Below, piece by piece: positions 2 to 43,716 of a DNA stretch of 64,000 bases. Source of the DNA: Chromatiales bacterium. GTDB taxonomy: Bacteria; Pseudomonadota; Gammaproteobacteria; Steroidobacterales; GCA-2729495. The position numbers and the translations under genes were made by a program. How positions within the stretch are numbered: the stretch's first letter is position 1; the number at the start of each line of letters is the position of its first letter. The notes under the pieces are model-generated. The model saw only the letters and a program-made list of their open reading frames with translations, did no database searches and was not told the origin of the DNA. The stretch covers positions 2,265,253-2,329,252 of the forward strand of contig CP070671.1 in the NCBI GenBank assembly GCA_020351875.1, in the 5' to 3' direction.

Positions 2-961
2 TACCAGGTCAAGCACGATATGGACCAGGCCACTCTCGACGCGCTGCGCGCAAAAATCGCGCTGTACCGAGGCATGACCGACATGGAACTCAACCTGAAC
101 ATGTCGGCGATGGGCCCGAACTACGAGTGGTATGCCAGCGATGTCGCGATGCAGGGCGATATCGGTGTGCTGATTCTTTCACACGGCGTGGGTCAGAACA
201 GCGATCGCATGCTGAAGGATGCGCTCGCGCCGGTGTCCGAGCGCTGGCCGACCGCCATTGGATTCGGCATGGCCATGATGCAGTCGGCTCACCTGCAATC
301 GGCAGTGGACGACCTCCAGGAGCGCGGCGCGACGACCATAGTCCTGGTGCCGAACGGCACGACTACCGAGTACAACACGCTGACGCGACAGTGGAAGTAC
401 ATCTTCGACATCGATGACGAGGAAGCGACCTATCTCGAGGTACCCAAAGTCGAGAGTGATGCTCGCTTCGTCATGACCAACCATTTTGCTGACAGCCAGT
501 TGATCACCGATATCCTCTATGACCATGCGAAGGAAGTCAGCAAGGATCCGGCGAACGAAGTGGTCATCATCGTCGGCCACGGGCCGGAAGATACCGAGGA
601 CAACGGTCCGGACCTCGAGATCCTGCAGGCGCACGTGGACCGTATCGTGGCGAAGAACGAGTTTGCCGACGTCAAGATCATCAACCTGCAGGATGACGCG
701 ATCCCGGCGATTCGTGAATCCAACGTCCGCAAGCTGCGACGCTGGGTGAAACAGGCCAACAAGAAGGGCCAGACGCCGATCGTGGTCGCGCTGGCAGCCG
801 CCAGTCACGGTGTGCAGACCCACATCCGCCAGGATCTGCGCGGTCTGGACTACGTGTTTGCCGACAAGGGCATGTCCGAGAATCCGAAGTATATTGAGTG
901 GATCGCGTCGGTGATCGAACAGGCCATCGACGCGGAGCAGCTTGCACAGGCGCGGCGGTAG
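2..961 (+). CDS. Exported-type class II chelatase-like protein, copy 1 (5' end outside window)
   Basis: Partial gene. The frame is open to the left edge, and the codons before the ATG at 20 still align with the copy at 21071 (YQVKHD here, YGMKHN there), so the true start lies outside. The fold reads as a duplicated alpha/beta chelatase-like unit: a hydrophobic strand ending in SHG (His55 counted from the ATG at 20), an MMQSAHLQ helix (His91), a VLVP strand with a TEYNT loop, then a second strand ending in GHGP (His187) and a LQDDA..IRESN block. These motifs recur in the copies at 21071 and 42697. The resemblance is to CbiX/SirB/CbiK metal chelatases (family knowledge), but substrate and metal are unknown. 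Whether this copy has the signal peptide and Met/His-rich tail of the others cannot be seen. A beta-propeller gene follows 86 bases downstream on the same strand. Confidence 0.75.
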   Translation, partial: YQVKHDMDQATLDALRAKIALYRGMTDMELNLNMSAMGPNYEWYASDVAMQGDIGVLILSHGVGQNSDRMLKDALAPVSERWPTAIGFGMAMMQSAHLQSAVDDLQERGATTIVLVPNGTTTEYNTLTRQWKYIFDIDDEEATYLEVPKVESDARFVMTNHFADSQLITDILYDHAKEVSKDPANEVVIIVGHGPEDTEDNGPDLEILQAHVDRIVAKNEFADVKIINLQDDAIPAIRESNVRKLRRWVKQANKKGQTPIVVALAAASHGVQTHIRQDLRGLDYVFADKGMSENPKYIEWIASVIEQAIDAEQLAQARR

Positions 962-1047: not shown

Positions 1048-2004
1048 ATGACCCGAGAGTCCACGATGCAACCCTTCGCGAAGGGCGACATTTTTATCGC
1101 GTGCACGTTACTGAACGTGCCCGACGACGACCATGCCGGCGAGGGTCGCATCTGGCAGTACGACAAGGACATGAACTTCAAGGGCGAGCTGTGGACCGAA
1201 GGCGGCAATCACTTCGTCGGCGGCCTGGAGTTCGATCCGAACGGCCCTCTCTGGGCTTTCAACGACTTCGCGGTCATCCACGTCGACCCGAAGACCGGCC
1301 GCCAGCTGCCGCTCAGCGACAAGTTCCTGCCGCGCTGTTACCGCAGCGCGAGTTTCGACCAGGACGGCAACGTGTATCTCGGCGAGCACATGAAGGCAAA
1401 GAAGAGACCTGACAACCCGATCGCGAGCCGCACGACGACGAAATTCCCGGTGATTCCGGGCGAGGGCGTGCTCGGCTTCGGCTACGTGTACAAGTACGAC
1501 AAGGACTGGAACCTGGTAAAGGTCTTCCACACCGAGTGCGCGCCGGACATGACACAGTTCAAGGGCGTCACGCATTCCAGCCTGCACCCCAGCGGTGAGT
1601 TCATTATCTACGCCACTGAAACCGGCAAGCGGCTGATGCGCTATGACGTCATCAACGACCGGCAGATGCCCGACCTGGTCACCTACCCCGGCGAAGACAT
1701 CATGGATCGCGTGTGGGTCATCGCGGTGAAGTACCTGCCTGACGGTCGCTTGCTGATCACGCGCGGTGACTTCATGGAAATGCTCGACGAAGACGGCAAT
1801 GTGCTGAAGAGCTACCCGCTGGAAACCTACGGGTGGTCAGATATCGAGATTTGCCACGATGGCGAGCACTGCCTGGTCAGCAACATCTGGGAAGGCACCG
1901 TAGTCAAGGTCAACGTCGAGAGCGGTGACATCGTCGCTACCATCGACACCGGTTTCAAGGCGCCGAACCGCTGCGTGGCCGGCGTGGCCGAATACCCGGG
2001 CTGA
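1048..2004 (+). CDS. SMP-30/gluconolactonase-like beta-propeller protein
   Basis: Predicted 318-residue protein made of repeated beta-propeller blades, visible as recurring patterns of the type GGLEFDPNGPLWAF, SASFDQDGNVYLGEH, SSLHPSGEFIIYAT and VKYLPDGRLLITRG. This is the layout of SMP-30/gluconolactonase/strictosidine-synthase-like propellers, which hydrolyse lactones or simply bind ligands. No signal peptide is apparent, so it is probably cytoplasmic. The frame is open further upstream, but I chose the ATG at 1048 because an AGGAG ribosome site lies just before it and the upstream codons overlap the chelatase-like gene. It lies 86 bases after that gene and may be co-transcribed with it. 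The substrate cannot be inferred. Confidence 0.75.
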   Translation: MTRESTMQPFAKGDIFIACTLLNVPDDDHAGEGRIWQYDKDMNFKGELWTEGGNHFVGGLEFDPNGPLWAFNDFAVIHVDPKTGRQLPLSDKFLPRCYRSASFDQDGNVYLGEHMKAKKRPDNPIASRTTTKFPVIPGEGVLGFGYVYKYDKDWNLVKVFHTECAPDMTQFKGVTHSSLHPSGEFIIYATETGKRLMRYDVINDRQMPDLVTYPGEDIMDRVWVIAVKYLPDGRLLITRGDFMEMLDEDGNVLKSYPLETYGWSDIEICHDGEHCLVSNIWEGTVVKVNVESGDIVATIDTGFKAPNRCVAGVAEYPG

Positions 2005-21070: not shown

Positions 21071-22222
21071 ATGATCTTGAACAAATTATGGCGCCGCCTG
21101 CTGCCGGGACTGGCGATAGCGGCCGCGCTGAGCCTGGTTGCGCAGGCGGCGCTGGCCGGCGCGCACTCGGCTGGCGAGTCCATGGACCACTCGAAGATGG
21201 ACCACTCTGGCCAAAGCATGATGTCCATGGGCGAGCAGCGCGACGAGAAAGGCCGCCGCCTGTATGGCATGAAGCACAACATCACGCCGGAGATTGCGAA
21301 CGAACTGCGCGAAAACGTGCCGTTGTTTGCGACCTACAGCGACGCCGAACTCAATCTCAGCATGGAGATGATGGGTTCGAACTACGAGTGGTACCTCAGC
21401 GAGGCGAATGTCAGCGGTGACCAGGGCCTGCTGTTGCTGATGCACGGGTTCCGGGAACGTGGCGACGCAGCCTTCAAAAAGAATATGCAGCCGATGGCCA
21501 GCATTTTCCCGACGGCGATGGCCGCGGGCATGAGCATGATGATGTCCGACCATATCCAGTGGGGCGTGAAGGACCTGGAGGCCGCCGGCGTGCAGACCAT
21601 TGTCGTCGTGCCGATCGTGTCGACGCGTTACAACACGATGATGCGCCAGTGGCAGTATATTTTGGGCCAGTATCCCGAGCCGTCATATGCGTCAGTCGCC
21701 CAGGTGCAATCCGACGCCCGGATCCTGATCGCGGACCCGCCCGGCGACGATCCGTTGATCGCGGAGATATTGCTGGACCACGCGATGGACATCAGCGAGG
21801 GCCCCGAGCAGGAAGTGGTGGTCATTGCGGCCCACGGGCCGTCCTTCGACGAAGATAATCAGAAGGTGTTGGCTGAGCTTGCGAACTTGGCGAAAATCGT
21901 GCGCGAGGATGGCGATTTTGCCGACGTGATGGCCATCACCTTGCAGGACGATGCGCCCACGGAAATTCGCGAGCGCAACGTCGCGAAGCTGCGCTCGATG
22001 GTCGAGCAGGCCACGGCCGGCGGCAAGCAGGTGCTGATCGTCACGAACCTGATCGGTACGCGCACGATCCAGGCGAAACTGCGGGACGACCTGAAGGGAC
22101 TGAACTACCGGTTCAACAAGAACGGCATCGTCAGCCACGACAACTTCATGAAGTGGATGGGCGAGACCGTGCGCCAGGAGCTGGAACGCAACAAGTCGGC
22201 GTCCACCGCCGCTGCGAACTGA
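21071..22222 (+). CDS. Exported class II chelatase-like protein with Met/His-rich tail, copy 2
   Basis: 383 residues from the ATG at 21071 (a GTG at 21050 is also in frame). A Sec signal peptide covers residues 1-30. Next comes a metal-binding-type tail with MDHSKMDHSGQSMMSM, like the repeats in periplasmic copper proteins such as CopB/PcoB. The body is a duplicated alpha/beta chelatase-like fold: LLLLMHGF (His125), MMMSDHIQ (His161), VVVP and STRYNT, then VVIAAHGP (His255) and LQDDAPTEIRERN. His spacing is 36 and 94. In CbiX-type chelatases a second metal His lies in the loop after the VxVP strand; here that loop has Tyr (RYNT). A strong bidirectional terminator follows. Likely periplasmic metal binding; enzymatic function unproven. 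Confidence 0.75.
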   Translation: MILNKLWRRLLPGLAIAAALSLVAQAALAGAHSAGESMDHSKMDHSGQSMMSMGEQRDEKGRRLYGMKHNITPEIANELRENVPLFATYSDAELNLSMEMMGSNYEWYLSEANVSGDQGLLLLMHGFRERGDAAFKKNMQPMASIFPTAMAAGMSMMMSDHIQWGVKDLEAAGVQTIVVVPIVSTRYNTMMRQWQYILGQYPEPSYASVAQVQSDARILIADPPGDDPLIAEILLDHAMDISEGPEQEVVVIAAHGPSFDEDNQKVLAELANLAKIVREDGDFADVMAITLQDDAPTEIRERNVAKLRSMVEQATAGGKQVLIVTNLIGTRTIQAKLRDDLKGLNYRFNKNGIVSHDNFMKWMGETVRQELERNKSASTAAAN

Positions 22223-39690: not shown

Positions 39691-41877
39691 TTGAAGCTCA
39701 CTCGTCGCCGTTTGCTGGCTGGTACCGCAGTGGTCGCCGGCGGCGGCCTTGTGCTCGCGCTGGTGCGCGACGACGACGCGCCGCGGCTGGGCGCTGAGCA
39801 CGACCTGGAGCCGAACGCGTACCTGCAGGTCCGGCCCGATGGCGTGATCGTCCTGCAGGTCGACAAGATCGAGATGGGCCAGGGTGTGATGACGGGCTTC
39901 GTCACGCTGCTGGCCGAGGAACTGGGTGTCCGTCCGGAACAGGTCACGCCGCGGCATGCGCCGGTACTGTCGCTGTTCCAGACGCCGTCGCAGCTGACCG
40001 CCGAGAGCAACAGCATGCGCAGCCGGTGGGACACGGTTCGCGAGACCGGGGCCGCGGCCCGCGAGATGTTGCGCGAAGCGGCGGCCCGACGCTGGGGGGT
40101 GGCCTTCGACCGGGTCGAAGTCGGTGGCGATGCCACGCTGTTGAACGCGGAGACCGGTGAGCGGCTTGCCTACGCGGACCTTGCCAACGCGGCAGCGGAG
40201 CTGTCGGTGCCGTCGTCGCCGCCGCTGACGCCGCCCGAGCGTTATCGATGGATCGGCGGCCGGGTCCCGCGCCCGGATGCACCGGACAAGGTGACCGGCC
40301 GCACCGTGTTCGGCAGCGACGTGCGCCTGCCCGGCATGTTGACCGCTGTCGTCGCGCGTCCGTCTCGAGCCGGTGATCGACTGTTGAGTTTTGATGCCGA
40401 AGCCGTCGCCGGCCTGCCCGGCGTTCGCCATGTTGTGGAGATTTCGTCGGGCGTGGCCGTGGTGGCCGACGGTTACTGGCAGGCGCAGCAAGCCGCGTCG
40501 CGGCTCCGCGCCGAGTGGGCGGACGGTCCGCTGGCGGGCTTCGACGTGGCGGCGCTGCGGGCAGAGCAGCGGGCCCGAATCGCCGCGGGCGACGGCAAGC
40601 GCGCGCGCAACGACGGCGATGTCGACACGGGTCTGGCCGGCGCCGGACATGGCCTGGAAGCCGAGTACCGAACGCCATTCGTCGCGCACGCCACCATGGA
40701 AACCATGAACGCGACGGTGCGGCTGACGGCTGACCATTGCGAAATCTGGGCCCCGGTGCAGGCCCCGGACCTGGCCCGGCAGGTGGCCTGCGACCTGGCG
40801 GGCCTGCGCCGCGACCAGGTCGACGTGCACACGACTTTTGCCGGCGGCGGCTTCGGACGCCGCGCGATGATCGACTTTGTCGAAGAAGCCATGCAGGTCG
40901 CGATGCAGATCGACGCGCCGGTGCAACTCGTCTGGTCGCGAGAAGATGACCTGCGCCACGACTATTACCGGAGCGCGACGCTGCATCGGCTGCGCGGCGG
41001 GATCGATGCCGACGGTCAGCTGGCGGCCTGGGATCACACGCTGGTCGCGCCGGATCATACTTCGGCGATCCTGCCGATCGGGCTGGCGAGCCTCGCCCCC
41101 GAGTCCTGGTCGCGCAGTTTCACGGACCGGATTGCCGGCTGGCTGGGCCCGCTGCAGGTGAAACTGCTGGGGCCCTACCAGGCCCGTGACGGTGCGGTCA
41201 CCCTGCCGTACGCAGCACCGAACTTGCGGGTGACCTTGCACGCGCTGAACCCGCCGCTGCCGGTGGGAATCTGGCGTTCAGTGGCTAATTCCTACAACGC
41301 GTTCGTGGTGGAGTCCTTCATCGACGAACTGGCGCACCTGGCAGGTGCAGATGCGGCGGAATACCGGCGCCGGCACCTGGGCGGCGAACCGCGACACCTC
41401 GCGGTGCTGGAGCGACTGGTCGACGCGTCCGGCTGGGGCAATGCGCCGGCAGGCCGTCACCAGGGTATGGCCATTCATGCGTGCTTCGATTCCGTGGTGG
41501 GGCAGGTGGCCGAGATATCGCTTACGGCCGGGCGTATCCGCGTGCATCGCGTGACCTGCGTGGTCGACTGCGGAATCGCGATCAACCCGGATATCGTCAG
41601 CGCGCAGCTGGAAAGCGGCATCCTGTACGGGTTGAACGCGGCGCTGCACGACGAGGTAGACGTGCTGGACGGGCGCGTGCGGCAAAGCAATTTTCACGAC
41701 TACCCGATGTTGCGCATCGCGGATTCTCCTGCGATCGAAACCCATATCATCGAGTCCGCAACCCACGTGGGAGGCATTGGCGAAGCCGGCACGCCGCCCA
41801 TCGCCCCGGCGGTGGCCAACGCGGTATTTGCGGCCACGGGCCGGCGCCTGCGAGAGTTGCCCCTGCGACTGGCCTGA
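39691..41877 (+). CDS. Molybdopterin-binding aldehyde/isoquinoline oxidoreductase large subunit (IorB-like)
   Basis: 728 residues from a TTG start. A Tat signal is present (MKLTRRRLLAGTAVVAGGG), so it is exported folded with its cofactor. Then come the IorB features: GVIVLQVDKIEMGQGVMTG, PDAPDKVTGRTVFGSDV, TTFAGGGFGRRAMIDF, VGIWRSVANSYNAF and the catalytic-glutamate region GGIGEAGTPPIAPAVANAVF. Family enzymes hydroxylate aldehydes or N-heterocycles and need a small [2Fe-2S] subunit (IorA) and an electron acceptor, usually a cytochrome c; no IorA gene is adjacent. It is preceded by the signal-peptide SDR and followed 10 bases later by the yhhQ-like gene. Confidence 0.88.
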   Translation: MKLTRRRLLAGTAVVAGGGLVLALVRDDDAPRLGAEHDLEPNAYLQVRPDGVIVLQVDKIEMGQGVMTGFVTLLAEELGVRPEQVTPRHAPVLSLFQTPSQLTAESNSMRSRWDTVRETGAAAREMLREAAARRWGVAFDRVEVGGDATLLNAETGERLAYADLANAAAELSVPSSPPLTPPERYRWIGGRVPRPDAPDKVTGRTVFGSDVRLPGMLTAVVARPSRAGDRLLSFDAEAVAGLPGVRHVVEISSGVAVVADGYWQAQQAASRLRAEWADGPLAGFDVAALRAEQRARIAAGDGKRARNDGDVDTGLAGAGHGLEAEYRTPFVAHATMETMNATVRLTADHCEIWAPVQAPDLARQVACDLAGLRRDQVDVHTTFAGGGFGRRAMIDFVEEAMQVAMQIDAPVQLVWSREDDLRHDYYRSATLHRLRGGIDADGQLAAWDHTLVAPDHTSAILPIGLASLAPESWSRSFTDRIAGWLGPLQVKLLGPYQARDGAVTLPYAAPNLRVTLHALNPPLPVGIWRSVANSYNAFVVESFIDELAHLAGADAAEYRRRHLGGEPRHLAVLERLVDASGWGNAPAGRHQGMAIHACFDSVVGQVAEISLTAGRIRVHRVTCVVDCGIAINPDIVSAQLESGILYGLNAALHDEVDVLDGRVRQSNFHDYPMLRIADSPAIETHIIESATHVGGIGEAGTPPIAPAVANAVFAATGRRLRELPLRLA

Positions 41878-41887
41878 CACGAACCTG

Positions 41888-42661
41888 ATGGAAGCGCAGG
41901 ACAAAGCCGGCAAGCTGTTCGTGATCCTGTCCGGGTTTTTCCTGGTCAACGCGGTGCTCGCCGAGTTCGTCGGCATCAAGATCTTCGCGCTCGAGACCGC
42001 GCTGGGCTTCGAGCCCCTGAACTGGACGCTGTTCGGCCAGACCGGGACGCTGAATTTTACGACCGGCGTGCTGTTGTGGCCCTTCGTGTTCGTGATGACG
42101 GACGTCATCAACGAGTACTTCGGGCGCCGCGGCGTGAAGTTCATTACCTGGTTGACGATTATCCTGATCGTCTATGCATTCCTGTTCGCCTTCCTGGCGA
42201 TCAAGGTTGCGCCGGCGGACTGGTGGGTGAGTTCCTACCAGGCGCAGGGGATTCCTGACATGCAGGTGGCCTTCGCCGGTATCTTCGGCCAGGGCCTGTG
42301 GGTGATCGTCGGCTCGCTGGTGGCCTTCCTGATCGGCCAGCTGCTGGATGTCACCGTCTACCACCGTGTGCGGCGGATTACCGGTGAGAGCAAGATCTGG
42401 CTGCGGGCGACGGGTTCCACGCTGGTGTCCCAGTTCGTCGACAGCTACGTGGTGCTGTACATTGCTTTCGTGATCGGCCCGCAGAACTGGCCGCTCGATC
42501 AGTTCCTGGCAGTGGGCACGCTGAACTACAGTTACAAGTTCGCGGCGGCCATCCTGATGACACCGCTGATTTATCTCGCGCACTTCCTGATCGACCGCTA
42601 CTTGGGCGCCGATGCCGATCGCCTGAAGCTTGCGGCCAGCGAGGACCGCGGCCACTGGTAA
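41888..42661 (+). CDS. yhhQ: Queuosine precursor transporter (YhhQ/QPTR family)
   Basis: 257 residues with six transmembrane helices and the DUF165 signatures: ALVFVMTDVINEYFGRR-like VFVMTDVINEYFGRRGVK, FLIGQLLDVTVYHRVRR and TLVSQFVDSYVVLYIAF. YhhQ imports 7-cyano-7-deazaguanine or related queuosine precursors (family knowledge). The ATG at 41888 is preferred over in-frame codons that overlap the upstream gene. It sits between the molybdenum hydroxylase and the third chelatase-like gene; the functional link to either is not evident. Confidence 0.88.
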   Translation: MEAQDKAGKLFVILSGFFLVNAVLAEFVGIKIFALETALGFEPLNWTLFGQTGTLNFTTGVLLWPFVFVMTDVINEYFGRRGVKFITWLTIILIVYAFLFAFLAIKVAPADWWVSSYQAQGIPDMQVAFAGIFGQGLWVIVGSLVAFLIGQLLDVTVYHRVRRITGESKIWLRATGSTLVSQFVDSYVVLYIAFVIGPQNWPLDQFLAVGTLNYSYKFAAAILMTPLIYLAHFLIDRYLGADADRLKLAASEDRGHW

Positions 42662-42696: not shown

Positions 42697-43716
42697 ATGA
42701 AAACCGGTTTTGTGAAGATATTGATCGGCCTGCCCTTGCTGCTCGGCACGACCGCCGTAGTCAACGCGCAGACCGATCATTCCCAGCACGCGGGCCACCA
42801 CCAGATGACAGCTGAACAGCTCGCGGAGCTGCGGTCGAAGATTCAGCTGTACGACCAGTACAGCGACGAACAGATCATGGCCGGTATGGCTCGCATGAAG
42901 AACTTGTGGGGTTGGGTTGGCGATACGCCGAAGAACGGCCGCGTGGGGGTGCTTGCCCTGGCGCACGGCTTCAAGGAGAAAGGGAACCAGCAGTTCACCA
43001 CCGCCTTCGAGGAGGTCGGTGAGCAATACCCGACCACTTACGCCTTTGGCATGGCGATGATGACGTCGGAGCATATCCAGGCGGCCGTTACGAGCCTCGA
43101 GGAGGCCGGCGCGCAGACCATCATCATCCTGCCCACCACCACCGCGGATCACTCCACGCTGACCCACCAGTGGGACTACATCTTCGGGCTGGAGGAAGAA
43201 TCAGCCTACCTGGACGTGCCGCGGGTACAAACGCAGGCGCGGCTGATCTGGACGGAGACGCCCACCGCGCACCCGATCATGGCGGAGATCATGCTCGACT
43301 ACGCAAGGGAGCTGAGCCGCGACCCCGCGAACGAACTGGTCATCATCATGGGCCACGGCCCGCAAAGTGCGGAAGACAACGCGAAAGAACTCGCGATCCT
43401 GTCACGGCACGCCGACTACATCGCCCGGGAGGGCGGCTTCATGGATGTGAAGTTCGCCAATGTGCAGGACGACGCGCCGACGGAGGTGCGGGCCGGGAAC
43501 GTGGCGGTAATTCGTGGCTGGGCGCAGGACGCGCTGGACCAGGGGCACGAGGTCGTGGTCGTGACCACTGCACTGACGCAGAGCGGTGTGGTGGCAAGAA
43601 TGAAGCAGGACGTCGAAGGCGTGGCGCGCTTCAACGACAAGGGGCTGATGCAGCATCCCCGGTTCGGCGCGTGGATCGACACCGTGATCGAGACCCGGGT
43701 CGCCGACGCGAACTGA
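42697..43716 (+). CDS. Exported class II chelatase-like protein with His-rich tail, copy 3
   Basis: 339 residues from the ATG at 42697 (GGGAG ribosome site; an upstream in-frame ATG at 42685 overlaps it). Signal peptide at 1-25, then DHSQHAGHHQM, a short His/Met metal-binding-type tail. The body repeats the motifs of the other copies: LALAHGF (His90), MMTSEHIQ (His126), IILP and TADHST, then IIMGHGP (His220) and VQDDAPTEVRAGN. His spacing is 36 and 94, identical to copy 2. Unlike copies 1 and 2, the loop after the VxxP strand keeps a His (ADHST), at the place where CbiX-type enzymes have their second metal ligand, so this copy is the best candidate for retained chelation. It starts 35 bases after yhhQ. 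Confidence 0.75.
   Translation: MKTGFVKILIGLPLLLGTTAVVNAQTDHSQHAGHHQMTAEQLAELRSKIQLYDQYSDEQIMAGMARMKNLWGWVGDTPKNGRVGVLALAHGFKEKGNQQFTTAFEEVGEQYPTTYAFGMAMMTSEHIQAAVTSLEEAGAQTIIILPTTTADHSTLTHQWDYIFGLEEESAYLDVPRVQTQARLIWTETPTAHPIMAEIMLDYARELSRDPANELVIIMGHGPQSAEDNAKELAILSRHADYIAREGGFMDVKFANVQDDAPTEVRAGNVAVIRGWAQDALDQGHEVVVVTTALTQSGVVARMKQDVEGVARFNDKGLMQHPRFGAWIDTVIETRVADAN

Follow-up and report, generated by a model that had tools for sequence, protein, structure and literature searches.

What does a family of exported proteins with the fold of class II chelatases do in a bacterium that carries several copies of it? This question is raised by a window of 64,000 nucleotides from the genome of a Chromatiales bacterium (bases 2265253-2329252 of a single-contig genome of 3.49 Mb). 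A preliminary description of the window had reported three homologous open reading frames, and all three are found where it placed them. The features are as follows, with coordinates in the window.

2..961, plus strand: copy 1, with its 5' end cut by the window edge; last-but-one gene of an HrtBA-like operon (sequence)
21071..22222, plus strand: copy 2, an exported tandem class II chelatase-fold protein of 383 amino acids (sequence, alignment, AlphaFold2 model, Foldseek)
21071..21157, plus strand: signal peptide of copy 2, about 29 amino acids, ending at AQAALA/GAHS (sequence; residues 1-35 have pLDDT<50 and are not modelled as folded)
21158..21229, plus strand: Met/His-rich tail of copy 2, GAHSAGESMDHSKMDHSGQSMMSM, variable across the family (sequence, homologue alignment)
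42697..43716, plus strand: copy 3, an exported chelatase-fold protein with a His-rich tail, separated by 36 bp from a preceding Vut_1 transporter gene (sequence, alignment)

Because the three copies can be aligned end to end at 37-39% identity, their likeness is not due to chance. The histidine spacing noted earlier is also exact: the distances from the HG histidine to the MMxSxH histidine and onward to the HGP histidine are 36 and 94 in copies 2 and 3, and 36 and 96 in copy 1. The genome carries five copies of the protein in total. Each begins with a signal peptide that is followed by a His-rich stretch, as read from the sequence, and the proposals that these proteins are exported and consist of two halves are both upheld. 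The full copy 1 gene extends about 156 nt beyond the window edge on its 5' side and encodes a signal peptide and then QDEHAHHHHGGG. Across the family, the tail after the signal peptide takes forms as different as MDHS repeats and simple runs of His. Thus, the MDHS tail to which attention had been drawn is real in copy 2 but is not a family-wide trait. We found no relatives on viral contigs.

An AlphaFold2 model of copy 2, computed with 42 homologues as input, has a mean pLDDT of 89.4 and a pTM of 0.84. When this model was compared with structures in the PDB using Foldseek, the best match was SirB from Bacillus subtilis (E 2.4e-10, TM 0.74 by target length), the second-best protein was the periplasmic CbiK-P of Desulfovibrio (E 7e-7), and ferrochelatase was third (E 9e-6). 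Furthermore, profile-profile comparison with HemH sequences using hhalign returned a probability of 92%. The family scores below the curated cut-offs of all known families, including Pfam CbiX PF01903 (14-19 bits, cut-off 22) and the NCBIfam CfbA profile (21-31 bits, E 3e-7 to 3e-4, cut-off 120 bits). Because the model, the Foldseek matches, and the HemH comparison agree, we consider it confirmed at the level of predicted structure that the family belongs to the class II chelatase-fold superfamily, which has two alpha/beta domains with parallel strands and a tetrapyrrole cleft. The fold suggested in the preliminary description is thereby borne out, as is its choice of CbiK-P as the best-known relative.

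We then asked whether the residues needed for chelatase chemistry are kept. Because the first 42 homologues had been retrieved partly by motif patterns, conservation was recounted on 31 homologues retrieved by whole-protein search, which carries no motif bias. The most informative positions in copy 2 are the following.

21443..21445, plus strand: His125, HG histidine of the first half, which corresponds by motif to His9 of CfbA and His10 of SirB (invariant, 42/42 and 31/31)
21530..21553, plus strand: the Met154-His161 segment, in which Met156 aligns with the metal-ligand Glu42 of CfbA (alignment)
21833..21835, plus strand: His255, the second-half HGP histidine, which pairs with the conserved histidine of HemH in the alignment (41/42 and 31/31)

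Four methionines (Met98, Met101, Met154, and Met156) and five other residues (Trp194, Gln292, Asp294, Arg300, and Asn303) are likewise present in every member of both sets. Three histidines had previously been described as constant. The first and third are, whereas the middle one, His161, occurs in only 35/42 and 24/31 homologues. The conserved histidines and methionines sit at the C-terminal ends of predicted strands, which is the edge that lines the cleft in the chelatase fold, and these strand ends would place the methionines within the cleft.

The metal site of CfbA is built around His9, Glu42, and His75 (PMC11301274). The family described here keeps the His9 equivalent, whereas Met156 stands in place of Glu42 and Ser/Thr189 in place of His75 (Ser or Thr in 40 of the 42). 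In the alignment with HemH, His255 falls on the conserved histidine, and Gln334 (Gln in 36/42 and 28/31) occupies the position of what we take to be the catalytic residue, Glu264 in B. subtilis numbering. Ordinary metal insertion by these proteins is doubtful, judging from sequence, because the partners of the HG histidines have been replaced by Ser/Thr, Met, and Gln. The earlier chelatase reading holds for the fold, and for classical activity it is doubtful. With two cleft-facing histidines, one per half, and the catalytic partners gone, the site looks more like one for binding than for insertion.

The gene neighborhood of copy 1 indicates what might be bound. The preliminary description was mistaken in stating that cobalamin, siroheme, and heme genes are absent from the vicinity, as copy 1 shares an operon with an HrtBA-like ABC exporter located just outside the window. 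Beyond the left edge, copy 1 is preceded by genes for an RND adaptor and pump, a methyltransferase, an FtsX-type permease, an ABC ATPase, and a TetR regulator. The central part of the operon, given in coordinates of locus L070 except for the last gene, is as follows.

L070 8610-9752: FtsX-type permease, HrtB-like
L070 9749-10471: ABC ATPase, HrtA-like, overlapping the permease gene
L070 10458-11075: TetR regulator
L070 11099-12214: complete copy 1 gene, 371 amino acids
Window 1048..2004, plus strand: conserved gene on the downstream side of copy 1 in the operon, encoding a predicted cytoplasmic beta-propeller (no family match in Pfam or NCBIfam)

A gap of 23 bp separates the TetR gene from copy 1. 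The beta-propeller gene, where present, directly follows a copy 1-type gene; its product has no signal peptide, and a structure search returned generic propellers only. The regulator was considered as a counterpart of HrtR, to which it has no special likeness.

The best solved relative of the permease is HrtB from Corynebacterium diphtheriae (7w78_B), which matches over the full length with E values of 4e-38 and 8e-41 (the next match has 7e-8), and that of the ATPase is HrtA (7w7a_A). HrtBA is a heme efflux pump that extracts its substrate from the membrane, with Glu219 of HrtB serving as the axial heme ligand (PMC11442138). The corresponding column (Glu254 here) holds Glu in 12/12 permease homologues, and L, L, and A in three other FtsX permeases. 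Full-length likeness to HrtB, retention of this glutamate, and the adjacent ATPase gene identify the partner genes as those of a putative HrtBA-type exporter, for which heme removal is predicted.

This association recurs elsewhere. Of 36 loci in an independent collection of contigs, 15 have the permease and/or ATPase gene next to a family member, and several of these 15 also have the TetR and propeller genes (gene starts in these other loci were called with a simple home-made program and may be inaccurate). A Pfam census of the 135 nearest neighbors is headed by ABC_tran (13), FtsX (10), and TetR_N (9). With the exception of one second tandem copy, the HrtBA-adjacent proteins form one well-supported clade that extends from alpha- to gammaproteobacteria. 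Among 40 relatives of the host, the permease is found in 19/26 genomes with the chelatase-fold protein versus 0/14 without it (Fisher p 6e-6, not corrected for ancestry). In 17 of the 19 HrtB-bearing relatives, the two genes share a contig and are no more than about 2.5 kb apart, and seven relatives have the chelatase-fold family and lack HrtB. Likewise, strong HrtB matches among 369 gammaproteobacterial genomes sampled across the class occur only in two that carry the chelatase-fold protein.

On balance, we lean toward the interpretation that the family consists of exported heme-binding and heme-transfer proteins derived from class II chelatases, with copy 1 acting as the periplasmic partner of an HrtBA-type pump. 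The preliminary description had suggested a periplasmic chaperone or store for copper or another soft metal, built on the chelatase scaffold. The invariant core methionines and histidine, together with the MDHS and HHHH tails, are what such a protein might be expected to have, but the tails vary and the neighborhoods tell against it. A copper P-type ATPase occurs in one of the 36 loci, no copper family is among the 25 commonest neighbors, and the linkage is instead to an HrtBA-type exporter and, in distant relatives, to heme and iron genes. A copper-related gene neighborhood is accordingly rejected, and we regard the copper reading itself as quite improbable. The sole copper cluster seen (L065 14964-17195) comprises the copper ATPase, a metal-binding domain protein, and a MerR-type regulator, and is about 4 kb from a copy-3-like gene.

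HrtBA adjoins only one of the five copies, and the other four are not near it. Genes for a molybdopterin oxidoreductase-like protein and a Vut_1 transporter of the queuosine-precursor type (window 39730-42661) lie directly upstream of copy 3, which may be co-transcribed with Vut_1 given the 36-bp gap. An M13 peptidase gene adjoins the copy-2 orthologue in a sister genome, and beside it is a gene for a CpeT/CpcT family protein (bilin lyase family, 118 bits; L034 5732-6805, minus strand) that was not observed at the corresponding position of the window. The copy 4 gene overlaps one for an MFS transporter, after which come genes for two Rieske oxygenases and an FAD monooxygenase (L071 2271-8166), and the pairing of a chelatase-fold gene with this MFS gene recurs in L031 and L041.

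An alternative is that some other hydrophobic compound, such as another porphyrin, a chlorophyll product, a metallophore, or a drug, is what the HrtBA-like pump and the chelatase-fold protein beside it move out or sequester, with heme being incidental. Pumps of the FtsX/MacB type do differ in what they transport, the operon is preceded by an RND pump in three cases (G000, L046, and L063), and the genes after copy 4 would also fit a different compound. We nevertheless judge this very unlikely, since the heme-ligand glutamate is invariant here and absent from unrelated FtsX permeases, and the chelatase fold is a tetrapyrrole-binding one.

The inventory of heme genes is relevant to the heme-binding interpretation. 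Profile searches of the genome found HemB and revealed none of HemE, HemH, or CbiX/SirB. Because HemB is present and HemE and HemH are absent, the host is likely a heme auxotroph. The same two genes are both lacking in 17 of 20 genomes of the host's family that are at least 90% complete, which suggests that members of this group produce uroporphyrinogen or siroheme and depend on an external supply of heme. Among the 14 relatives without the chelatase-fold protein, HemH is found in 12/14 and HemE in 11/14, although this comparison is confounded by shared ancestry, as most positives come from one bacterial family. No heme TonB receptor in the genome scores above the curated cut-off. A 2024 survey of heme auxotrophs from natural habitats reported that 60% of the genomes are without a known heme receptor and called for unknown components (PMC11139205). 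There is also precedent for pairing auxotrophy with efflux, as Streptococcus agalactiae, itself auxotrophic for heme, is reported to counter heme toxicity by means of HrtBA (PMC5238366). Separately, each of two genomes (G009 and G021) has three hemE-like genes in tandem that score above the curated cut-off. A biosynthetic role was rejected, as both genomes lack HemB, and the genes may reflect a catabolic use of the HemE fold.

More distant, four-domain relatives occur in other gammaproteobacteria and on plasmids of Candidatus Manganitrophus. They keep both HG histidines, and a search for the Met motif in them found none. These genes adjoin TonB receptor genes in four loci, and the receptor at L106 scores above the cut-off for a heme/hemoglobin family. 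The L106 locus also includes FTR1 and a bacterioferritin-like gene (the latter assigned by eye), HmuY is encoded beside the relative at L105, PepSY_TM genes are nearby at L107 and L135, and L135 has a ferritin-like gene. Across lineages, heme and iron genes recur near the family and copper genes do not. Of the two Manganitrophus plasmids (CP114559 and CP114562; L135 and L136), one carries an intact relative and the other a relative split into pieces.

The same observations frame the main rival, that the proteins are active periplasmic chelatases or dechelatases that work on scavenged tetrapyrroles, either stripping iron from heme or inserting it into imported porphyrins in place of HemH. This possibility draws on the fold with both HG histidines kept, on the absence of HemH and HemE from the host, and on the heme receptor, ferritin-like, and FTR1 iron genes near the distant relatives. 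In addition, HmuS, a class I chelatase relative, takes part in the heme metabolism of Bacteroidota (PMC13227078). However, the second histidine of CfbA and SirB has become Ser/Thr, the metal-ligand Glu has become Met, Gln stands at the position taken for the catalytic Glu of HemH, and no porphyrin importer was identified, so we consider active chelatases unlikely. A fuller version, in which exported chelatases of bacteria lacking HemE and HemH metalate or demetalate scavenged porphyrins in the periplasm while the HrtBA-type pump and TonB receptors move the rings, is a long shot. If true, periplasmic porphyrin metalation or demetalation would mean that heme is remodelled in the cell envelope.

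Comparison with known systems places the heme-binding interpretation in context. The proteins share with SirB, CbiX, and CfbA the fold and the HG histidine that ends the first strand, and the histidine found in both halves of the CfbA dimer is here found in both halves of one chain. Unlike those enzymes, they are exported and have a His/Met tail and an N-terminal Met helix, in addition to the replacements of His75 and Glu42 noted above. With HemH/CpfC ferrochelatase they have in common the two-domain fold and the second-half histidine, though they differ in export, in the Gln at the presumed catalytic position, and in residing in a host without HemH.

CbiK-P is likewise an exported protein with a class II chelatase fold. 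This periplasmic protein of Desulfovibrio vulgaris is reported to have turned into a haem-binding protein (Lobo et al. 2017), which provides a precedent for heme binding. It differs from the family described here in sequence (11% identity in the structure alignment) and in operon. We know of no Met motif or HrtBA partner for CbiK-P.

The HrtBA systems of Corynebacterium and Staphylococcus resemble the partner genes in having a permease that is about 35% identical over its full length, the Glu219 residue, an adjacent ATPase, and TetR control as in HrtR systems. The present operon differs in its Gram-negative host and in its extra exported chelatase-fold protein and beta-propeller. HmuY and HmuS of Bacteroidota offer a further parallel, as a chelatase relative there handles heme together with a heme-binding protein and a TonB receptor, but HmuS is a large chelatase of class I (CobN-type) with an unrelated fold.

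If the heme-binding interpretation is correct, two class II chelatase halves would have been converted from a metal insertase into a protein that binds and delivers heme or a related tetrapyrrole. Heme would be drawn from the inner membrane by the HrtB-like permease via Glu254 as the HrtA-like protein hydrolyzes ATP, and would be received by the chelatase-fold protein in the cleft between His125 and His255, along a wall lined with methionines. The His/Met-rich tail may add affinity for metal or heme, and the TetR protein encoded in the operon is probably a load sensor. A host that lacks HemE and HemH probably lives on scavenged heme, and five such proteins would therefore be useful to it.

A 2024 review stated that HrtBA homologues were yet to be identified in Gram-negative bacteria, and this locus is a concrete candidate for an HrtBA-like pump with the heme-ligand residue in such an organism. 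The new exported protein family with a tetrapyrrole fold, in bacteria that are apparently unable to make heme, is likewise a candidate for the unknown components called for in heme auxotrophs, and the locus suggests a novel means of dealing with scavenged heme.
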